Shown piece after piece: positions 49 through 8,457 of a stretch of 8,929 nt of DNA. The position numbers were made by a program, and so were the translations under genes. Numbering within the stretch: the first letter of the stretch is position 1; the number at the start of each line of letters is the position of its first letter. Source of the DNA: a bacterium (lineage in GTDB: Bacteria; SZUA-182; DTGQ01); contig JAILZY010000124.1 in assembly GCA_023512255.1 (NCBI GenBank), positions 1 through 8,929 of the forward strand. The letters run 5' to 3'. The notes under the pieces were generated by a model. That model was not told the DNA's origin. It did not search any database and worked only from the letters and a program-made list of their open reading frames with translations.

Positions 49-1263
49 ATGGTCAATCTGAGTAGCTTGAAAATTGAAGCCATTCTGGATGAGATGAATC
101 GGGAAATAGCTATGAACGCCAAGATCTTCAACCTGGAGATCAATGACCTAAAGGGGTTCAGAGAGGCGCTTCAGCGGGCCAACCTTGAGCTTGGAAAGCT
201 CAATTCCCTGTATGATGATACCAGAAAGAGGCTGGAAAAACATATCCATGAGCTGAATACCTTAAACACGATCACCTATAAAGCTCGTGAGACCCTAAAG
301 CCGCTTCAAATCATTCAAAATGCCCTCAAGGAAACAAGCGAGGGCTTTGGTTTCCCTCGGCTTATATGGTTTTCCGTTGATGAGCAAAAAAGATTTATCA
401 CCCCCCAAGCAACCTGCGGCCAGTTCCCTAACCATTTGTCTATTACCAGTGTGGGGCTAAGCTGGGATGATGAGATCGGCTCTTGCCTCCTGCCCTCTAT
501 TCAGGAACAAAAAATTCTCCACCTAAAAAGCGAGCAAAGCAGTCAACTGCCAGCTATCCAGCTCCTTAGGGCAATGCAGAGCAGCGAGTTACTCATTGTG
601 CCAATTAGAACTGATCAGAAGGTTACCGATCTGCTCCTAATCGACAACCAGGATGCAAGAGTGGCTATCTCCCCTGACACGATCAAGGTGATCGAAATCC
701 TGGCTATGAATCTTGGGCTGGTTCTGGAAAACGCCAAGTTGTTTCAATTCACTGCTCAGATGGCAAGAATTGATTCTTTGACCGAAATCTATAATCGACG
801 GCATTTGGATGAGTCATTAGGCATTGAGGTCAACCGATCGGCTCGTTTTCAGCAGATATTTTCGATCGCTCTCTTTGATATCGATCACTTCAAAAAAATC
901 AACGATACCTATGGCCATCAGGCGGGCGATGTTGTCTTAAAGGATGTGGCGGCAATCATAAAGAGCAATTCCAGAAATATTGATATCGTCGGCAGACTCG
1001 GGGGCGATGAATTTTTGGTTATCCTGCCAAATACTGATAAGCAGGGGGCTATTATCTTTGCCGAACGGGTCAGGGCCATTGTGGAAAGATACGGATTACT
1101 AAGACAGAAAAATTTCCCCAACTGTCAAATCACGCTCAGTATTGGATTAGCTGAATTCCACAGCAGCCTAGATACCCCTGAGCGGCTCTTACATAAGGCT
1201 GATCAGGCACTATATCAGTCTAAGCAAAGGAGAAATACGGTTACTCTGTTTAAGGAAACATGA
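49..1263 (+). CDS. GAF-like/GGDEF diguanylate cyclase, probably 5'-truncated by the window edge
   Basis: Predicted to condense two GTP into cyclic di-GMP in the cytoplasm. Numbering from the ATG at 49, residues about 25-72 look like a helical coiled-coil linker, 75-232 a GAF-like sensor region, and 240-402 a complete GGDEF domain. The catalytic motif GGDEF is intact at 318-322. The metal and substrate region FDIDHFKKIND lies at 276-286. An RxxD inhibitory I-site (R309, D312) sits exactly five residues before GGDEF, so product inhibition is expected. No transmembrane segment or EAL domain is visible. The frame stays open from 48 back to position 1, and there is only a weak AGG before the ATG, so the true start is probably outside the window and another sensor or receiver domain may be missing. 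The ligand of the GAF-like region is unknown. The enzyme call is firm; the start is not. Confidence 0.93.
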   Translation: MVNLSSLKIEAILDEMNREIAMNAKIFNLEINDLKGFREALQRANLELGKLNSLYDDTRKRLEKHIHELNTLNTITYKARETLKPLQIIQNALKETSEGFGFPRLIWFSVDEQKRFITPQATCGQFPNHLSITSVGLSWDDEIGSCLLPSIQEQKILHLKSEQSSQLPAIQLLRAMQSSELLIVPIRTDQKVTDLLLIDNQDARVAISPDTIKVIEILAMNLGLVLENAKLFQFTAQMARIDSLTEIYNRRHLDESLGIEVNRSARFQQIFSIALFDIDHFKKINDTYGHQAGDVVLKDVAAIIKSNSRNIDIVGRLGGDEFLVILPNTDKQGAIIFAERVRAIVERYGLLRQKNFPNCQITLSIGLAEFHSSLDTPERLLHKADQALYQSKQRRNTVTLFKET

Positions 1264-1327: not shown

Positions 1328-1459
1328 CAATCCCTCTTATCTGAACAATCCCTCTTATCTAAAGAGAGTAAACTCATCTAAAAAGGGTAAACTCAATCGA
1401 CATGGCCAAGCAGATTAGCCAAGCAGATTAAAGGCGGACAATCCCCTTTTATCTGAACA
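1328..1459. repeat. Degenerate short repeats in the convergent intergenic region, including a copy of the 3' end of the next gene
   Basis: The 15-mer caatccctcttatct occurs at 1328-1342 and 1346-1360, an 18-bp period. A variant, caatccccttttatctga, starts at 1439 and contains the stop codon of the minus-strand coiled-coil gene (1449-1451). Between them are gtaaactc copies near 1368 and 1387 that resemble the gtaaacagg near 1463. Read on the minus strand, the stretch just past the stop codon looks like several decayed copies of the gene's last bases. The 1264-1448 gap otherwise shows no gene. A weak 7-bp stem (1310-1316 with 1332-1338) lacks a T run, so no terminator is called for the cyclase. 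Confidence 0.7.
1405..1430. repeat. Perfect 13-bp tandem duplication
   Basis: gccaagcagatta occurs at 1405-1417 and again immediately at 1418-1430. It is intergenic, between two convergent genes, and its function is unknown. It is one of several short tandem duplications in the non-coding parts of this window. Confidence 0.9.
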
Positions 1460-1907
1460 GGGTAAACAGGGTAATGATGACCCCTGTTTGGGCCACCAGC
1501 AATCCAGCTACCCATTTAATCACACTAGAGCGGACCTGCTCTATTTCTTTGGTCAGTCCTCCCCGCATCTGCTCTATCTCTTTGATCAGTCCTCCTCGGA
1601 CCTGCTCTATCTCTTTGGTCAGTCCTCCCCGCATCTGCTCTATTTCTTTGATCAGTTCTCCCCGCAGCTGCTCTATTTCTTTAGTTAGCTCTCCCCTAAC
1701 CTGCTCTATTTCTTTGGTTAGATTTAGGCGTAACTGCTCTATTTCTTTGGTTAATCTCAACTCGGACTCTCGCAAATCCCCTTTTGTGATTACATAATCT
1801 CTGGCACGACTGATTAATGCCTCAATATCTTTCACGGCTAACTGAGCTTTCTCTTTGCCGAAACTCTCGGCGAAGATAGTAAATAGCTCCATGACTTCTG
1901 TACTCAT
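1449..1907 (-). CDS. Coiled-coil protein with seven 11-residue repeats and a C-terminal membrane anchor (DUF1640/CCDC90-like)
   Basis: A 152-residue protein of unknown function. Residues 1-45 are a helical head (starts MSTEVMELFTIF). The KGDLRESELR segment at 42-51 resembles the 'TKxDL' region common before the coiled coil in bacterial DUF1640/CCDC90-like proteins; that link is from memory of the family. Residues 52-128 are seven uninterrupted 11-residue units of the form L(T/I)KEIEQ(L/V/M)R(G/L)x, a hendecad pattern predicting a long coiled coil. Residues 132-151 (start WVAGLLVAQ) form one hydrophobic segment, followed by a lone terminal Arg. This suggests a tail-anchored protein with the coiled coil in the cytoplasm. 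The ATG at 1907 is chosen because a near-perfect Shine-Dalgarno lies upstream; a TTG at 1931 in the same frame would overlap it. The gene has its own promoter and converges with the cyclase gene. The role is unknown; oligomeric scaffolding is possible. Confidence 0.85.
   Translation of the reverse strand: MSTEVMELFTIFAESFGKEKAQLAVKDIEALISRARDYVITKGDLRESELRLTKEIEQLRLNLTKEIEQVRGELTKEIEQLRGELIKEIEQMRGGLTKEIEQVRGGLIKEIEQMRGGLTKEIEQVRSSVIKWVAGLLVAQTGVIITLFTLFR
1524..1754 (-). repeat. 33-bp coding tandem repeat, seven copies, with a 66-bp higher-order unit
   Basis: Seven 33-bp units encode the 11-residue hendecads (residues 52-128) of the coiled-coil protein. Units 4 and 6 encode the same peptide (LIKEIEQMRGG). 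Unit 5 (LTKEIEQVRGG) matches unit 7 except for its last two residues. The most recent duplication step therefore seems to have been 66 bp. The high DNA similarity makes the copy number prone to slippage, and any copy change keeps the frame. Confidence 0.92.
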
Positions 1908-1918
1908 TGTACAACCAT

Positions 1919-1926
1919 ACCTCCTT
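1919..1926 (-). promoter_or_regulatory. Strong Shine-Dalgarno sequence of the coiled-coil gene
   Basis: The minus strand reads AAGGAGGT, an almost full anti-16S match, with 11 bases between it and the ATG at 1907. Another ATG directly abuts this site, too close to be used. The site decides the start in favour of 1907 over the TTG at 1931, which would place the Shine-Dalgarno inside the coding region. Confidence 0.8.
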
Positions 1927-1950
1927 GACAAATAGGATCATTTACCTAAT

Positions 1951-2220: not shown

Positions 2221-2282
2221 CAATATCTCTACCAGAAGAAGCTACCCGCATCAATATCTCTACCAGGATAAACCACCCGCAT
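2221..2282. repeat. 31-bp tandem duplication of the stop-codon end of the giant gene
   Basis: Positions 2221-2251 and 2252-2282 match at 27 of 31 bases. The upstream copy holds the real end of the giant gene (A-G-G-L-S-W-TAG, stop at 2260-2262). The downstream copy still carries TGGTAG but in a different frame, because 31 is not a multiple of three. There it would read A-G-S-F-F-W-stop. Confidence 0.9.
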
Positions 2283-2853
2283 TATTGTAGGCTGACGGCC
2301 AGGCACTCCCAAAGCTAGACCAGCTTGTCGAGGAGGGGTAATTGCCCAGACTAAATCCGCTGCCCTGATAGCCGCTGCCCTGATAGCCGCCGCTATAGTA
2401 GTATTGGCTTTCCCCGTAATATGCCCCACCATAGGATGTCCCACCATAATACCAAGGATTCCACAGGTTATAACTGCCTGCTGTCAACCAGGAGTAAATG
2501 CTATTGGAAAATCCATAGCCGGAGGCTGATGGCCAAAAACTAGTTAAGCCAGAGTATGACCAAGAGCCACCCAATGGGCCGATTAGGTTAAGCGGTCCAT
2601 ATACTCCTCCGAAGGCGGCTAGGGAGCCGAAGGTATAGGCTGCTGGCGGGCTGAGGGAGGGAAGCTGCGACCAGCTACCACTAGTAAGGCCACTCATCCA
2701 GGAAGAATAGCCAGAAGATACCAAAACTTGTGGATAGCCACCACCTCCGCTGGATCCTGGATTCGCACCTGTTGCGCTGCCTACACCTGCCGCACCCTGT
2801 GCCGGTACACCTTGTGCCGGTTGGCTAGCAGCCGACTGCTGTCCCCCTTGAGG
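2260..2853 (-). other. Nearly uncharged Gly/Ser/Tyr/Trp-rich C-terminal tail of the giant protein
   Basis: Residues 1869-2065 contain one charged residue (Glu 2016) and no Lys, Arg, His or Asp. The first 40 are a Gln/Ala/Gly/Pro linker. The rest is Ser/Gly with Trp, Tyr and Phe spaced every few residues, ending in YYGG, SYGG, AYYGES, QYYYSGG and a doubled GYQGS. The doubling reflects a 15-bp tandem repeat at 2358-2387. The composition recalls silk-like or low-complexity self-associating sequences. It is not a recognised sorting signal. A role in assembly or surface attachment is inference. Confidence 0.85.
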
Positions 2854-5800
2854 TTTAGCTGGCAAAATACTATAGGTTTCCGATCTGACCGCCCCACGGT
2901 TGCCAAAGGAATCTATAGCCAAAACCTTCAGGGTGGTTGTATTGGACAGATGCAGGGGCTCGGTATAGATATTCGATTCGGTATCAGGGTCAGTGCCGTT
3001 GGTGGTGTAGTAGAGAATGGCCGGCTCATCGGTGCTGAGCACTACGGTTTGTGGGGAGGAGTAGGGTCCTCCTCCAGGAGAGATGATAATAGTTGAAGCT
3101 TTAGTATCAAGGAGAAAGGGTGCGCTTTGCGCCTCAGCTAGCCCATTTGCCGCCTGGCCGTCATCAGCTTTGATTTTGATTCGACAGGCGGCAAGCTGCT
3201 GGCCGCTAAATTCCTCTTTAGCCTGCCAAATGGCGGTCAGGTTTGATCCGATAGGCTGTGGGAAGCTATATCCAGAAGCAGCCTGACAATCCCTCCACCG
3301 CGAGCCGTCCCAGTATTGGAAACTAATTGATATCAGGGACTGTTCCTGATCAAGGCAGCTATAGGTGATAATCACAGAACCATCCCCTTCTTGCTGCCTG
3401 GCCGATATAATTTGAACCCTTGGGGGGCTGTTAGTTGTAGCCCCAAAAGTCTGGTTAACAGGATCAGCTTCACCAAAGGGAGGATTCACCATCTTGACCA
3501 TAAAGGAGCCATCCGGTATGCTTGAGGAGAGGAGGGCCTTAATCTGCCTGCCGCTAGAGTTAACTTCGCTGGTTTGGGCAGACCAGTAGGAGGGCTTGCT
3601 GAGAATGACCAGACCTGCTGATCCTGCGGCACAAAATAGATACTTATCACTCAGACAAAGCCCCCGTACCTGAAGCTGTTCAGGCAAGTCCATACCAGCC
3701 ATGAGAAAAGGATATCCAGGCTGGGCAAGGTCGATCACCTGCAACTTTGAGTAGCCATCAGCCACATAAGCACAGTGCTCGAAGATTGAGACCCCCTCGG
3801 CATAGCCTGGCGTATCGCAGCTTGCCACAAGATGCGGATTTTCAGGCCGACTTGTGTCGATAGCCAAAAGGCCTGAATATCCAGCAGCTACATAGAGATA
3901 ATTCCCTTGTCCGCTTACACCATAAGCCCAGTCTGGTATAGGAAGGCTTTTTTTGAACACTGGCTTATCAGGCTGGCTTATGTCAATGACCTGAATACCT
4001 GCCCACTCATCAGCCACATAAGCTATATTCCCCAAAACCCACACACCGCGGGCATATCCTGGCGTATTGCAGCTTCCTGTTACCCGAGGTTGCTCTGGCT
4101 GACTAAGATCAATGACCAAAAGACCTGAATATCCAGCGGCCACAAAGGCATAGTTTTTACTCCTCACCCCGCCATCCTCTGCTTTAGCCAACAGAGTAGC
4201 GAGACAGATTCCATAGGCTCCCTCATCCAAAGGACAGCTTCCCTTAAGAGCCGGATTCTCCGACTGGCTGATATCAATCACTAAAAGACCACTTCGCCCA
4301 GCAGCCACATAGGCATAATTTCCCACCGTGCATACTCCCAGGGCTTCTCCCTGAGCAATTCTATAGCTTCCAATCTTCACCAGAGGCTCATCCCGAAAGA
4401 TGCCGATCAGGGTGGAGGCAGTGAGATTTTCTCCATCTATGGTCAGAATGGGAACTCCATCCGAAGACCAGCCTGGCCGAATGGATTTGACAGATGGCTT
4501 GGTCTGCTTATTGCCAGGATCGAGAGCACAGAGGCAGAGCTTATTCTTCTCGCTACTGCACATGGCCGGATTATTAGGATCTGGTCCGACTTCAAAACCA
4601 TCCCACACTCCATCCTGATCAGTGTCCGGCCTGGTATAATCTGTCTTGAGGATAAAATACTCCTGGCCATCAGAAAGCCCATCATTATCGCTGTCATAAT
4701 CAAGAGCATCGATCAGGCCGTCATTGTCGCTGTCCAGAGGCTTTTGGGCATTAGGGCCCCATTCCAGGCCATCAGCTAGCCCATCGCCATCCGTATCTTT
4801 TAGGCAGGGGTCAGTAGCATTTCGGTATTCAAAGAGATTTTTAATTCCATCACCATCAGGATCACCATAAGGGCCGTGGCTAGGATTTCCCAATCCAGCA
4901 TCGCAAGGGTCAAGACAGGGGCGGCTGTATTCATATCCATCAGGTAAGCCGTCCTCATCCGAATCAGCGCTGCTCACCTTAAGACAACCTGATAAGGCTT
5001 CAAGCCGGTTTGCCAGGCCATCGCCATCCTCATCTTGGTCAGGATCAAGGAATTTGACTAAAAGCCCGCTCTCAGGGGCGGCAATCTCAAGCCCCATCCT
5101 CTCTGTATCTTTGACCACAAGGTGTAGCTCTTCTGCTCGGCTGTCAGTTAGGCTGAGGACAACCTTTCCAGCCTCGGTCTCAACTAGGGCTCTACTGCCG
5201 CTGCTGTTCATCAGGAGCAGCTTGCCGACCGAAGGATTTGGACTGAAAACTGCCGACCCATCGACCGACAGGGTAAATTTGACTGCTTCTCCAGCCGCTA
5301 GGCTGCCATCCGGGTTTTGAACCACACAGCTGATGCTCAGGCTTGTCCCTGGCCAGGCAAAATCAGGAGTTTGAATAACAACCTTTTTAGACATCCGATA
5401 TTGTTCCACCCTAACCGGCTCTTGGTTTCCAAAACTGTCTACGGCAAAGAATTTCAAGATCATGGTCTTGTCAATGACTATCGGCTCGGCTGCGCTAAAG
5501 CGGGACGATCGAACCGTAGGGTTTGACCCGTCAGTGGTATAGTAGATGGCGACCACTTTCGAATCATCGCTGGCAGTCAAAGTTACGGCTATCTTTTGGC
5601 TATAGACACCCCCGGCCGGGGTAGCCAAAGACTTGGGAGGAGCAGTATCGAGAGCAAAAGCCTGACTCTGTCCCTCGGCCAGATGATCAATCGCCTGGCC
5701 ATCATCGGCTATGACCTTAATCCAGCAATTCTGATAGTAGCGGCCAGCAACATCTTCCCTGGCTCTCCATGAGGCGGACAGAAGTTGTCCGGTCGGCTGC

Positions 5801-8457
5801 ACTCCTGCGCCGCTTACGCTGCTGCATGAATGCCACCCAGAGCCATCCCTATACTGAAAGGAGATATTCACCGAGCTCTGCTCATTGTCAAGGCAGCGGT
5901 AGTGGATAAGCACTGTGCCATCGGCCTGCTGCTGTGCGGCGACATCCAGAACCTGCGGCCGGCTATTGCCGTTAGCGATGGAAAATGGGAACTCAGAGAC
6001 AGCCTGAGATATGATTTTCCGCTCCCCCTGATCCCATGCCCGACAGGTTATCCTGATCAGGTAATCATCGCCGTCCGCCACTCGGCTGGTATCCCACTCA
6101 TACAGACCATCATTTTTCTCGCCCGTAGCGATGGATTTCCAGCTCTGGCCTCGGTCTGGGCTGTAGTCAATATCTATCGACACCGCCTCTGAGCTAAAGC
6201 TACCCTGATCAGCCATCCACTGAATTCGAATCATCTGCTTGAATATCTCCCCTGCCTGGGGATAGAGGATGCGGATTAAGGGATTATCGCTCATTACTTC
6301 AAAGGAGTTAGTCAGCCAACTAGTATTCAGGGTGTTTTTGTCGATCATTCTTATAGTATAAAACCCTTCTGCCAGACCAGCCGGTATAATTGCCTGAGCC
6401 AGGGTTCCTTCGGCATTTGCCCCTTTGATCTGGCTGGGCCAGAAAATTGGCAGAGAGAGAACCTGAAGGCCAAACTCACCTGAGGCAAGATAGAGGCGGC
6501 CCTGATCAATCCATAGCCCGATAGGCTCGCCAGTAAGATTCTGACCAAGATGAGCTACAGGCAGGGGCTGGTTTGGATTTTTGGCATCAACGATCATTAA
6601 ACCTCCTGTCTTATCAGCCACATAGACATAGCCTTCGAGCACAAAGACCTCTTCGGCATAGCCTGTGGTGTCTAAGTTACCAGCAAGGGTAGGCTGGCTG
6701 GGATTTTGTATATCGATGATCGCAAGGCCGCAAGCGCCGTCAGCTACATAGGCATATTGACCGCTGATAAAGACTCCGTGGGCCGTGCCCGGGGTATCAC
6801 ACCTGCCGACAAGGGCTGGCTGACTGGGATTTTGAACATTGATGATGGTAAGGCCACTATCACCATCAGCCACATAAGCAAGGCCGCCACAAACCCTAAC
6901 TCCATAGGCTGTGCCTAGGGTATCGCATCTGCCGACAAGGGCTGGCTGACTGGGATTTTGAACATTGATGATGGTGAGGCCACTATCACCGTCAGCTACA
7001 TAGGCATGATTATTGGCAACAACGACCTTGTTGGCCTGCCCTGGGCTGTCACAAGTTCCCTTGAGCTCAGGCTTAGCAGGTTGGCTGACATCAATTATTG
7101 CCAGACCAGCATCACCCTCGGCCAGGTAGAGGAATTTATCCGCAGCCCAAACCCCCTGCACCCGGCCAGGCATATCAAGGGTTGCAATCTGAGTCGGCTG
7201 GCCACTGGTGTTAAAACCTACAATCTGAAGGCCAGCATCGCCATCAGCTAGATAAGCATAACCATTGAGAACAAAGACTCCATAGGTCCAGCCTGGGGTA
7301 TCATAGTTTTTGGGCAAGGTGGAACTGTTGATATGGCTGATATTTATCATCTGAACACCAAAGCCGCCATCAGCCACATAGGCCTGGTTCCCCAGGATAA
7401 AAATCCCGTAAGGTGATCCTGGCGTACGGCAGCGTGCCTTGAGGATTGGCCTAGCTGGATAGGTAACGTCGATTACCTGAAGACCAAAGCTACTGTCAGC
7501 CAAAAAAGCCATCCCTTCACGAGTCTGTACTCCACAAGCCCAGCCAGAGCCGCTCTGGTAGCTGCCTATAAGGAAGGGCTTAGTGGGTCGGCTGATATCA
7601 ACAATCTGAAGACCAAAGCCGCTATCAGCCACATAAGCCAAGGTGCCAGCCACCGAGACGCTGATAGCATTTCCTGGCGTGTCATAGCTTCCCACAAGAG
7701 CTGGTTTGGCTGGCTGGCTGACATTTATGATCGCAAGACCAAAAGCACCATCAGCCACATAGGCATAATCTGAGGCCACATAAACACTGTGGGCAGAGCC
7801 AGCTGTATCACAGCTCCCCTTGAGAGTAGGCCGATCAGGCTGGCTGATATCAATGATTTGAAGGCCGCAACGGTCATCAGCCACATAAGCATAGCTCCCC
7901 CGAACAAAAACCCCATAGGCATAGCCTGAGGTATCGTAGCTTCCCACCATTAAGGGCTGATCAGGCTGGCTGACATCAATTATCGCAAGACCGCAATATC
8001 CATCGGCAATATAAGCGTAATTCCCCTGAACCTGTACTCCGCAGGCCCAGCCTGGCGTGTCGTAGCTTCCAACCACCAGAGGCCGATCAGGCTGGCTGAC
8101 ATCAATGATTTGAAGCCCTACGGTGTCATCAGCTACATACACATAGTTTCCCTGAGCATACACTCCTTGTGCCCAGCCTGAAATTCTACACTCCCTCCTG
8201 GGCAAGGGATCCTCCTGGTAGATGCTGATAGCGGCCTCTTTAGTCAGATTTTCCCCCTGGATTGAGACTAGGGTGGCGGCATTGGTATAGCCTTTAGCCG
8301 GAGTTATTGATTTTATGACCATAGCCGTCTCGGATTGAGCCCAGCAGACCGAAGGCAGAGCTCCAGAGAGTAGGATGTTCATAAGAATCATACCTGGAAG
8401 GATAATAAAATAACCAAAACTCCCCCGATAACCAATCTCTTTCCTAACCTTATGCAT
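2260..8457 (-). CDS. Giant secreted multidomain protein: two IPT/LVIVD/chitobiase-C modules, TSP3 linker, aromatic Gly/Ser tail
   Basis: A 2065-residue protein, probably exported by Sec. A signal peptide covers residues 1-41 (basic start, hydrophobic 18-39, likely cut after CWAQ). Module A: IPT/TIG start 46-88, about 14 LVIVD repeats 90-670, IPT-like end 673-722, Ig-like 726-826, bacterial Ig/FN-like 831-935, chitobiase C-terminal-like domain 940-1022. Then come a Big_1-like stretch (1024-1135) and seven calcium-binding TSP3 motifs (1138-1290). Module B: IPT start 1321-1360, about six LVIVD repeats 1362-1622, IPT end 1624-1673, FN-like 1676-1784, chitobiase-C-like 1786-1864. A Gly/Ser/Tyr/Trp tail runs from 1869 to 2065. 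No catalytic motif is visible, nor LPXTG, PEP-CTERM, Por-type sorting tag or beta-barrel. The role is probably extracellular adhesion or scaffolding (inference). The ATG at 8457 has a Shine-Dalgarno and is directly followed by the signal peptide. The single uninterrupted frame and domain order make the gene certain; its function is unknown. Confidence 0.96.
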   Translation of the reverse strand: MHKVRKEIGYRGSFGYFIILPGMILMNILLSGALPSVCWAQSETAMVIKSITPAKGYTNAATLVSIQGENLTKEAAISIYQEDPLPRRECRISGWAQGVYAQGNYVYVADDTVGLQIIDVSQPDRPLVVGSYDTPGWACGVQVQGNYAYIADGYCGLAIIDVSQPDQPLMVGSYDTSGYAYGVFVRGSYAYVADDRCGLQIIDISQPDRPTLKGSCDTAGSAHSVYVASDYAYVADGAFGLAIINVSQPAKPALVGSYDTPGNAISVSVAGTLAYVADSGFGLQIVDISRPTKPFLIGSYQSGSGWACGVQTREGMAFLADSSFGLQVIDVTYPARPILKARCRTPGSPYGIFILGNQAYVADGGFGVQMINISHINSSTLPKNYDTPGWTYGVFVLNGYAYLADGDAGLQIVGFNTSGQPTQIATLDMPGRVQGVWAADKFLYLAEGDAGLAIIDVSQPAKPELKGTCDSPGQANKVVVANNHAYVADGDSGLTIINVQNPSQPALVGRCDTLGTAYGVRVCGGLAYVADGDSGLTIINVQNPSQPALVGRCDTPGTAHGVFISGQYAYVADGACGLAIIDIQNPSQPTLAGNLDTTGYAEEVFVLEGYVYVADKTGGLMIVDAKNPNQPLPVAHLGQNLTGEPIGLWIDQGRLYLASGEFGLQVLSLPIFWPSQIKGANAEGTLAQAIIPAGLAEGFYTIRMIDKNTLNTSWLTNSFEVMSDNPLIRILYPQAGEIFKQMIRIQWMADQGSFSSEAVSIDIDYSPDRGQSWKSIATGEKNDGLYEWDTSRVADGDDYLIRITCRAWDQGERKIISQAVSEFPFSIANGNSRPQVLDVAAQQQADGTVLIHYRCLDNEQSSVNISFQYRDGSGWHSCSSVSGAGVQPTGQLLSASWRAREDVAGRYYQNCWIKVIADDGQAIDHLAEGQSQAFALDTAPPKSLATPAGGVYSQKIAVTLTASDDSKVVAIYYTTDGSNPTVRSSRFSAAEPIVIDKTMILKFFAVDSFGNQEPVRVEQYRMSKKVVIQTPDFAWPGTSLSISCVVQNPDGSLAAGEAVKFTLSVDGSAVFSPNPSVGKLLLMNSSGSRALVETEAGKVVLSLTDSRAEELHLVVKDTERMGLEIAAPESGLLVKFLDPDQDEDGDGLANRLEALSGCLKVSSADSDEDGLPDGYEYSRPCLDPCDAGLGNPSHGPYGDPDGDGIKNLFEYRNATDPCLKDTDGDGLADGLEWGPNAQKPLDSDNDGLIDALDYDSDNDGLSDGQEYFILKTDYTRPDTDQDGVWDGFEVGPDPNNPAMCSSEKNKLCLCALDPGNKQTKPSVKSIRPGWSSDGVPILTIDGENLTASTLIGIFRDEPLVKIGSYRIAQGEALGVCTVGNYAYVAAGRSGLLVIDISQSENPALKGSCPLDEGAYGICLATLLAKAEDGGVRSKNYAFVAAGYSGLLVIDLSQPEQPRVTGSCNTPGYARGVWVLGNIAYVADEWAGIQVIDISQPDKPVFKKSLPIPDWAYGVSGQGNYLYVAAGYSGLLAIDTSRPENPHLVASCDTPGYAEGVSIFEHCAYVADGYSKLQVIDLAQPGYPFLMAGMDLPEQLQVRGLCLSDKYLFCAAGSAGLVILSKPSYWSAQTSEVNSSGRQIKALLSSSIPDGSFMVKMVNPPFGEADPVNQTFGATTNSPPRVQIISARQQEGDGSVIITYSCLDQEQSLISISFQYWDGSRWRDCQAASGYSFPQPIGSNLTAIWQAKEEFSGQQLAACRIKIKADDGQAANGLAEAQSAPFLLDTKASTIIISPGGGPYSSPQTVVLSTDEPAILYYTTNGTDPDTESNIYTEPLHLSNTTTLKVLAIDSFGNRGAVRSETYSILPAKPQGGQQSAASQPAQGVPAQGAAGVGSATGANPGSSGGGGYPQVLVSSGYSSWMSGLTSGSWSQLPSLSPPAAYTFGSLAAFGGVYGPLNLIGPLGGSWSYSGLTSFWPSASGYGFSNSIYSWLTAGSYNLWNPWYYGGTSYGGAYYGESQYYYSGGYQGSGYQGSGFSLGNYPSSTSWSSFGSAWPSAYNNAGGLSW
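3592..4374 (-). repeat. LVIVD repeat array 2 (about 6 units) in the giant protein
   Basis: Residues 1362-1622 repeat the pattern YAYVAAGxSGLLVIDISQPxxPxLxxSCDTPG about six times. The second unit carries a 12-residue insertion (around 1420-1434, KAEDGGVRSK) between strands. VAAG replaces VADG in several blades. Like array 1, it starts after an IPT-type first half and ends in an aromatic-W-x-Q/S stretch that leads into an IPT-type second half. Six units plus flanking strands could close one propeller (inference). Confidence 0.83.
4588..5046 (-). repeat. Thrombospondin type 3 calcium-binding repeats of the giant protein
   Basis: Residues 1138-1290 hold seven motifs of the form DxDxDG followed by an acidic residue, including DSDEDGLPDGYE, DPDGDGIKNLFE, DTDGDGLADGLE, DSDNDGLIDALD and DTDQDGVWDGFE. 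The family binds calcium and stiffens in its presence. Here the block lies exactly between the two duplicated modules, so it may act as a calcium-dependent hinge or rod (inference). Paired cysteines in the block (1158, 1181, 1185, 1218) could form disulfides after export. Confidence 0.9.
6448..8190 (-). repeat. LVIVD repeat array 1 (about 14 units of 42 residues) in the giant protein
   Basis: Residues 90-670 consist of units such as GNYAYVADGxxGLxIIDVSQPxxPxLVGSYDTPG, almost always 42 residues (126 bp). This is the LVIVD family pattern, known from surface proteins and expected to form beta-propeller blades. Fourteen units would suit two seven-bladed propellers (inference). Some blades are decayed: unit 7 has lost the (D/N)P turn, unit 8 reads IVGFNTSG in place of IIDVSQP, and units 13-14 are irregular. 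Conserved Asp in VAD and Cys in GSCDTPG recur through the array. Confidence 0.85.
6793..7005 (-). repeat. Recently duplicated pair of LVIVD units
   Basis: Positions 6793-6879 and 6919-7005 (126-bp period) encode an identical 29-residue stretch (residues 485-513 and 527-555). They differ by only a few silent bases, for example gatggtaagg versus gatggtgagg. This is far closer than any other pair in the array, so one blade was gained recently by duplication or gene conversion. Confidence 0.9.

Follow-up and report, generated by a model that had tools for sequence, protein, structure and literature searches.

The window, by which we mean the whole stretch of 8,929 nucleotides analysed here, contains a single long open reading frame (positions 2260-8457, minus strand), which encodes a protein of 2065 amino acids. 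The protein carries two arrays of LVIVD repeats of 42 residues, which belong to Pfam family PF08309 (577.5 bits, with the cut-off at 20.2; E 2.8e-178, 18 stretches). Pfam also identifies two CHB_HEX_C_1 stretches and a match to TIG (PF01833) that reaches 27.3 bits at residues 47-79 and covers only positions 2-35 of the 84 in the profile, that is, half a domain. An earlier note on this DNA had described the reading frame and quoted motifs from its translation, all of which are found at the residues it gave, and had proposed that each array lies between the two halves of a split IPT/TIG domain. We call the two halves and the array between them a unit. From the N-terminus to the C-terminus, we delimited the protein as follows.

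8335..8457, minus strand: signal-peptide-like N-terminus, residues 1-41 (hydrophobic, ends ...VCWA; by eye from the translation)
8212..8322, minus strand: unit 1, predicted IPT/TIG N-half, residues 46-82, strands A, A', B and C (Pfam, hhalign and model)
7336..8211, minus strand: unit 1, first predicted 7-bladed LVIVD propeller, residues 83-374 (7 blades and model)
6451..7335, minus strand: unit 1, second predicted 7-bladed LVIVD propeller, residues 375-669 (7 blades and model)
6292..6450, minus strand: unit 1, predicted IPT/TIG C-half, residues 670-722, strands C', E, F and G (hhalign and model)
5389..6291, minus strand: Ig-like stretch with CHB_HEX_C-like domain, following unit 1, residues 723-1023 (Pfam CHB_HEX_C_1, two stretches)
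5053..5388, minus strand: Ig-like linker, residues 1024-1135 (sequence inspection alone)
4507..5052, minus strand: Asp-rich TSP3-like repeats, residues 1136-1317 (Pfam TSP3_bac below cut-off; DxDxDG motifs)
4393..4497, minus strand: unit 2, predicted IPT/TIG N-half, residues 1321-1355 (Pfam 12.5 bits, below cut-off; hhalign)
3592..4392, minus strand: unit 2, predicted 6-bladed LVIVD propeller, residues 1356-1622 (6 blades and model)
3439..3591, minus strand: unit 2, predicted IPT/TIG C-half, residues 1623-1673 (hhalign)
2872..3432, minus strand: Ig-like and CHB_HEX_C-like stretch after unit 2, residues 1676-1862 (Pfam CHB_HEX_C_1 at 1794-1858)
2263..2865, minus strand: Gly/Ser/Tyr-rich low-complexity C-terminal tail, residues 1865-2065 (from the translation)

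Judging from their sequence, the Asp-rich repeats probably bind calcium. A Gly/Ser/Tyr-rich low-complexity C-terminal tail is also found on a 788-aa open reading frame (L017), and the frame that neighbours a nested paralogue on contig C120 has a similar end tail. Two further genes lie in the window. The first, at the far end from the LVIVD frame and on the opposite strand (49-1263, plus strand), encodes a GGDEF protein with a GAF-like region. The second (1449-1931, minus strand) encodes a coiled-coil protein of 160 amino acids, built on a 33-bp tandem repeat in 6.6 copies with the 11-residue unit TKEIEQ.RG.L; its match to CCDC90-like proteins is weak and below the cut-off. An Rfam scan of the window gave no match.

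Predicted propeller rings in the two arrays

The earlier note had counted about 14 and about 6 blades, and our local profile gives exactly 14 (residues 92-666) and 6 (residues 1369-1618), 20 in total. It had also taken each array to be one propeller, which stands for the 6-bladed unit 2 and has to be revised for unit 1, where the model points to two 7-bladed rings. The AlphaFold model of unit 1, made from nine aligned units (model residue + 41 gives the protein residue), has a mean pLDDT of 90.5 and a pTM of 0.75, with flank blocks at about 69-91. Its residues 44-331 match a WD40 propeller of seven blades (Z 36.9, 269 residues aligned at 1.7 A), and its residues 39-627 match the double propeller 2ymu with Z 36.0 and 519 aligned residues at an rmsd of 12.9, a fit that is loose overall. 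We considered and rejected a single 14-bladed ring for unit 1: model residues 44-331 fit a ring of seven blades, and a single large ring is also disfavoured by the clustering of the sampled arrays, which were picked by likeness to a 14-blade query, at 14, 21 and 28 blades.

Propellers usually close by means of their first strand, which completes the last blade. The first modelled ring of unit 1 starts with a strand of the N-flank (model residue 44), and its final strand is the third of blade 7 (model residue 331); its opening outer strand, at residues 87-90, closes the ring. Residues 83-91, and residues 1356-1363 in unit 2, belong to the propeller as the outer strand closing the last blade and are not part of the TIG domain. 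The model of unit 2 matches closed 6-bladed propellers such as phytase (1qlg, Z 27.2), an NHL propeller (6d69, Z 25.8) and DFPase (1pjx, Z 24.8). These 7- and 6-bladed matches of the AlphaFold predictions, closed rings of 4-stranded blades, place both arrays among the beta-propellers.

The presence of two enzymes, phytase and DFPase, among the best structural matches of the unit 2 ring raises an alternative to the binding role proposed below: the propellers could be enzymes, with the TIG domain just mounting a catalytic ring. We find this improbable, because these matches share a common fold at 8-16% identity, no catalytic motif was identified (without a systematic search), and the arrays are near-regular repeats. 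A sequence search of the PDB with unit 1 returned no relative at E 0.01.

The flanks as probable halves of one domain

The flanks described by the earlier note are present, and its statement that neither is a full IPT domain holds; in both units they match complementary, non-overlapping parts of the profile. Their limits were corrected. The N-halves, given as residues 46-88 and 1321-1360, span 46-82 and 1321-1355, and the C-halves, given as 673-722 and 1624-1673, span 670-722 and 1623-1673. We compared two-sequence alignments of the window units with 14 intact TIG domains (88 columns) using hhalign. In unit 1, the N-half matches columns 2-35, the C-half columns 49-86, and the joined halves columns 2-86 with probability 98.1. 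The corresponding matches in unit 2 are columns 2-30, columns 48-74 (90.2 alone) and columns 2-74 (91.8). These profile-profile matches support the assignment of the joined halves of both units to IPT/TIG. The break point is constant, at the C-C' hairpin of the TIG domain (about profile position 38-44), where intact TIG domains vary in length also. A profile of 15 joined sequences matches the solved IPT/TIG domains of CGTase, plexin and Met, and residues 498-581 of CGTase match its positions 2-87 of 90, straight across the junction.

The model of unit 1 has strands at residues 47-52, 62-69 and 76-81 in the N-flank and at residues 672-680, 686-691, 698-705 and 712-722 in the C-flank. Strands C (76-81) and E (686-691) are both called, though their partners in the Ig fold sit in the opposite half. 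From these strand calls and the Ig topology, we infer that the two flanks of unit 1 would contact each other. The flanks of unit 2 were modelled from an alignment of two sequences and have pLDDT < 50, so that the model is silent on their packing.

The same flanks could be arranged in tandem, as a truncated TIG-like cap before the array and a separate small Ig-like domain behind it that do not make one domain. The Pfam profile, which does not join the flanks of the window, is on the side of this arrangement: the score passes from 23.0 to 21.9 bits in unit 1 (positions 2-38), without gain, and from 12.5 to 13.4 bits in unit 2, which is below the cut-off and was also scored as no gain. The low confidence of both flanks in the unit 2 model and the existence of an LVIVD protein (L079) with a complete TIG domain simply behind its array point the same way. 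We read the Pfam result on the window as a false negative, which sequence divergence would explain. When the same profile is applied to homologues, joining the C-half to the N-half raises the score from 27.4 to 44.6, 22.4 to 34.9, 22.3 to 34.9, 19.8 to 29.3, 23.1 to 33.6 and 24.3 to 37.4 bits. The best of these joined flanks covers positions 1-78 of the 84 in TIG, and decoy C-flanks from un-nested LVIVD proteins, attached to the same 27.4-bit N-half, give 26.9 or 27.8 bits. The C-half is textbook-like in several homologues, e.g. LNVDTPPGLSSGTYHITLTDPNG.

A stricter test used a TIG profile built from the 14 intact domains. Each nested unit was scored with its own C-flank and, for comparison, with shuffles and with the C-flanks of LVIVD proteins that are not nested (77 in number). 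The intact domains had been located with a profile made mostly of nested sequences, a mild circularity, and the independent Pfam numbers agree with the outcome. Joining the flanks raises unit 1 of the window from 28.7 to 40.1 bits, and none of the 77 decoy flanks does as well. Unit 2 of the window passes only from 5.2 to 6.4 bits, and one of the 77 decoys is as good; in the orthologue, unit 2 rises from 4.7 bits for the N-half to 18.3 bits, a score attained by no decoy (0/77). The expectation of the earlier note that the joined flanks would outscore each half thus fails with Pfam on the window and is borne out with the profile of intact domains, weakly so for unit 2. Over all nested units, the score increases in 18 of 24, mostly by 11-39 bits (1.2 for unit 2 of the window), and in 21 of the 24 the C-half by itself gives 8.4-36.6 bits. 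The six units without gain under the automatic cut are L124, L046, L017, L048, L019 and L051. In L017 and L046 the last blade had escaped detection, which misplaced the cut; scored by themselves, the C-halves of these two reach 21.7 and 27.0 bits. L017, L019 and L124 gain in Pfam once the flanks are cut by hand; L048 and L051 remain weak.

These results leave the tandem arrangement very improbable. First, the flanks are complementary, non-overlapping parts of one profile in the homologues as well as in the window. Second, the 77 ordinary arrays include no clear case of an N-half only or a C-half only (best N score 4.0 bits, best C score 5.3). Third, flanks of about four strands each are too few for two Ig domains. 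Fourth, a constant break at one hairpin is not expected of chance pairing. The proposal of the earlier note that a propeller was inserted into a loop of an Ig-like fold is upheld by the complementary halves, by their recurrence in 24 units in all and by the joined profile that crosses the junction. We consider it very likely, from the profile matches and the unit 1 model, that each unit is one IPT/TIG domain in which the C-C' turn is replaced by a closed LVIVD propeller body.

Recurrence and origin of the nested unit

The nested layout occurs in 22 further units, in several bacterial lineages. An orthologue in another species has both units and is 67% identical, and the genome of the window encodes three more proteins that consist of a TIG N-half, an LVIVD array and a TIG C-half (contigs C69, C120 and C162). 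Besides the orthologue, nine further nested proteins were found in relatives, one of them a fragment. One homologous unit, in L056, has 7 blades (379 residues). In the phylum of the window (9 genomes), junctions between a blade and a C-half are present in the genome itself and in three relatives, drawn from the genus, the family and the order to which it belongs. Of a set of 290 genomes, two that belong to a single unrelated genus together have seven nested units, each of 14 or 21 blades. We also scanned named genomes and retrieved 80 LVIVD loci (L064-L143), picked by likeness to a 14-blade query. Both TIG halves are present in three of the 80: an Ectothiorhodospiraceae MAG (L084, 14 blades; a gammaproteobacterium), a Desulfocapsa MAG (L124, 14 blades) and an unclassified bacterium (L120, 21 blades). 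None of the 80 loci has a clear single TIG half. Their arrays have mostly 14 blades and otherwise 7, 21 or 28, as if LVIVD arrays were built from 7-bladed rings. The nested design is a real and reused building plan in several bacterial lineages.

Some other proteins of these genomes differ in layout. Four large LVIVD proteins of the window's family (L018, L047, L050 and L053) lack TIG halves, and in at least L018 the array is followed by a long stretch of caspase-like appearance (DLTILLIDHGRKN..., VTVIIDACYAGDF). In the genome of the window, an 809-aa frame on contig C29 (L021) has a TIG-like N-half, ISSILPQPGRLESLTGCIMTLIGRRL, and a C-half, ISDTEVRFRANTAGLGHGPYYLWVTNN, that are about 250 residues apart. 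The joined halves score 15.4 bits in Pfam over positions 1-75, below the cut-off, and with the local profile 0 of 200 shuffles are as good, though the score is low (5.7 bits).

The two units of the window are related by duplication, as the earlier note had suggested: the Ig-like and CHB_HEX_C stretches behind them are 45% identical over 194 residues (E 2e-50). The orthologue also has both units, which dates the duplication of the whole module to before the divergence of the two species. Nesting did not originate in this protein, being common to its paralogues and to other lineages. Nested arrays group together in a tree built from 14-blade arrays, with 4 changes against 14.2 in shuffles, and a single clade of nested arrays is not rejected (p-AU 0.498). 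A single origin is not established by this tree, because of its long branches and possible repeat homogenisation. LVIVD arrays could instead have been inserted repeatedly and independently at a permissive C-C' hairpin, as might be suggested by the Desulfocapsa array (L124), which the free tree places among un-nested arrays, and by L021, a possible TIG domain interrupted at this hairpin by another kind of domain, about 250 residues long. The clustering and the AU test speak against repeated origins, which we hold to be rather unlikely, with a tree of repeats and long branches that is weak either way.

Proposed architecture and known systems

The nested design combines known elements by a known process: both families, LVIVD and IPT/TIG, have been known, and domain insertion is a known process. 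The LVIVD family was described in surface proteins of Methanosarcina acetivorans (PMC2447325). The arrays described here are made of ordinary LVIVD repeats; whereas most of the sampled arrays stand alone or in tandem, these lie inside another domain. The joined flanks match IPT/TIG (PF01833; plexin, Met, domain D of CGTase) over nearly its whole length. To our knowledge, the known IPT/TIG examples are all continuous. In Met and plexin, a sema propeller and IPT domains are consecutive, not nested. The earlier note knew of no description of the nested arrangement, and we found no paper in the open-access literature that describes an LVIVD array nested in an IPT/TIG domain, which is not proof of absence.

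Other proteins provide parallels for parts of this plan. Prolyl oligopeptidase and DPP4 have a propeller that another domain accommodates or wraps, with the connections at adjacent ends; the host there is an alpha/beta hydrolase, whose active site is gated by the propeller. The hybrid domain of integrins has an Ig-like fold. In integrin beta chains, the betaI domain is inserted in this hybrid domain (PMC9856412, PMC8249084). As in the units studied here, a globular domain (the ligand-binding betaI) is set in a beta-sandwich through two tethers in an extracellular adhesion protein; the betaI insert is vWFA-like and not a propeller, and we claim no homology. It would be the nearest functional analogy. 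In lipin/Pah, one Ig-like domain is formed from two segments hundreds of residues apart (PMC7066176), so a sandwich can form from distant segments. The spacer of lipin/Pah differs from the propellers in being an extended linker in an enzyme, at another turn of the fold (near strands E and E').

The architecture that we propose would put closed rings in place of the turn, two of seven blades in unit 1 and a single one of six blades in unit 2. The chain would 1) form TIG strands A to C and then the outer strand that closes the ring; 2) run round the blades and exit once the last blade has its innermost three strands; and 3) complete the TIG domain with strands C', E, F and G. The ends of a closed propeller lie side by side, and it can therefore replace a tight turn without pulling its host apart. 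Both ends of the host TIG domain are free, so that it can remain in line with the neighbouring Ig-like domains. A start that resembles a signal peptide, Ig-like domains, TSP3-like repeats and a tail rich in Gly, Ser and Tyr give the protein the look of a secreted stalk on the cell surface, from which the propellers would project sideways on two-strand tethers. The case for this stalk with side-mounted propellers seems to us evenly poised. The side branches could tentatively be assigned a role in binding partners or ligands outside the cell.

Family profiles see half a TIG domain and a run of LVIVD repeats, and the true architecture is therefore missed in annotation. The nested plan accounts for these half-domains and suggests how a propeller hangs sideways off a line of Ig-like domains. 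The number of blades changes (6, 7, 14, 21) while the host domain is constant, which is expected if the inserts are one or more closed rings. The plan also marks the C-C' hairpin as a natural insertion site and a candidate graft point. More speculatively, bacterial surface proteins might use this hairpin of IPT/TIG domains generally as a docking slot, with different closed or compact domains inserted as side branches, among them LVIVD arrays of 6, 7, 14 and 21 blades and the unrelated domain of about 250 residues in L021. If true, this would provide a modular way of decorating an Ig-like stalk while keeping its line intact.
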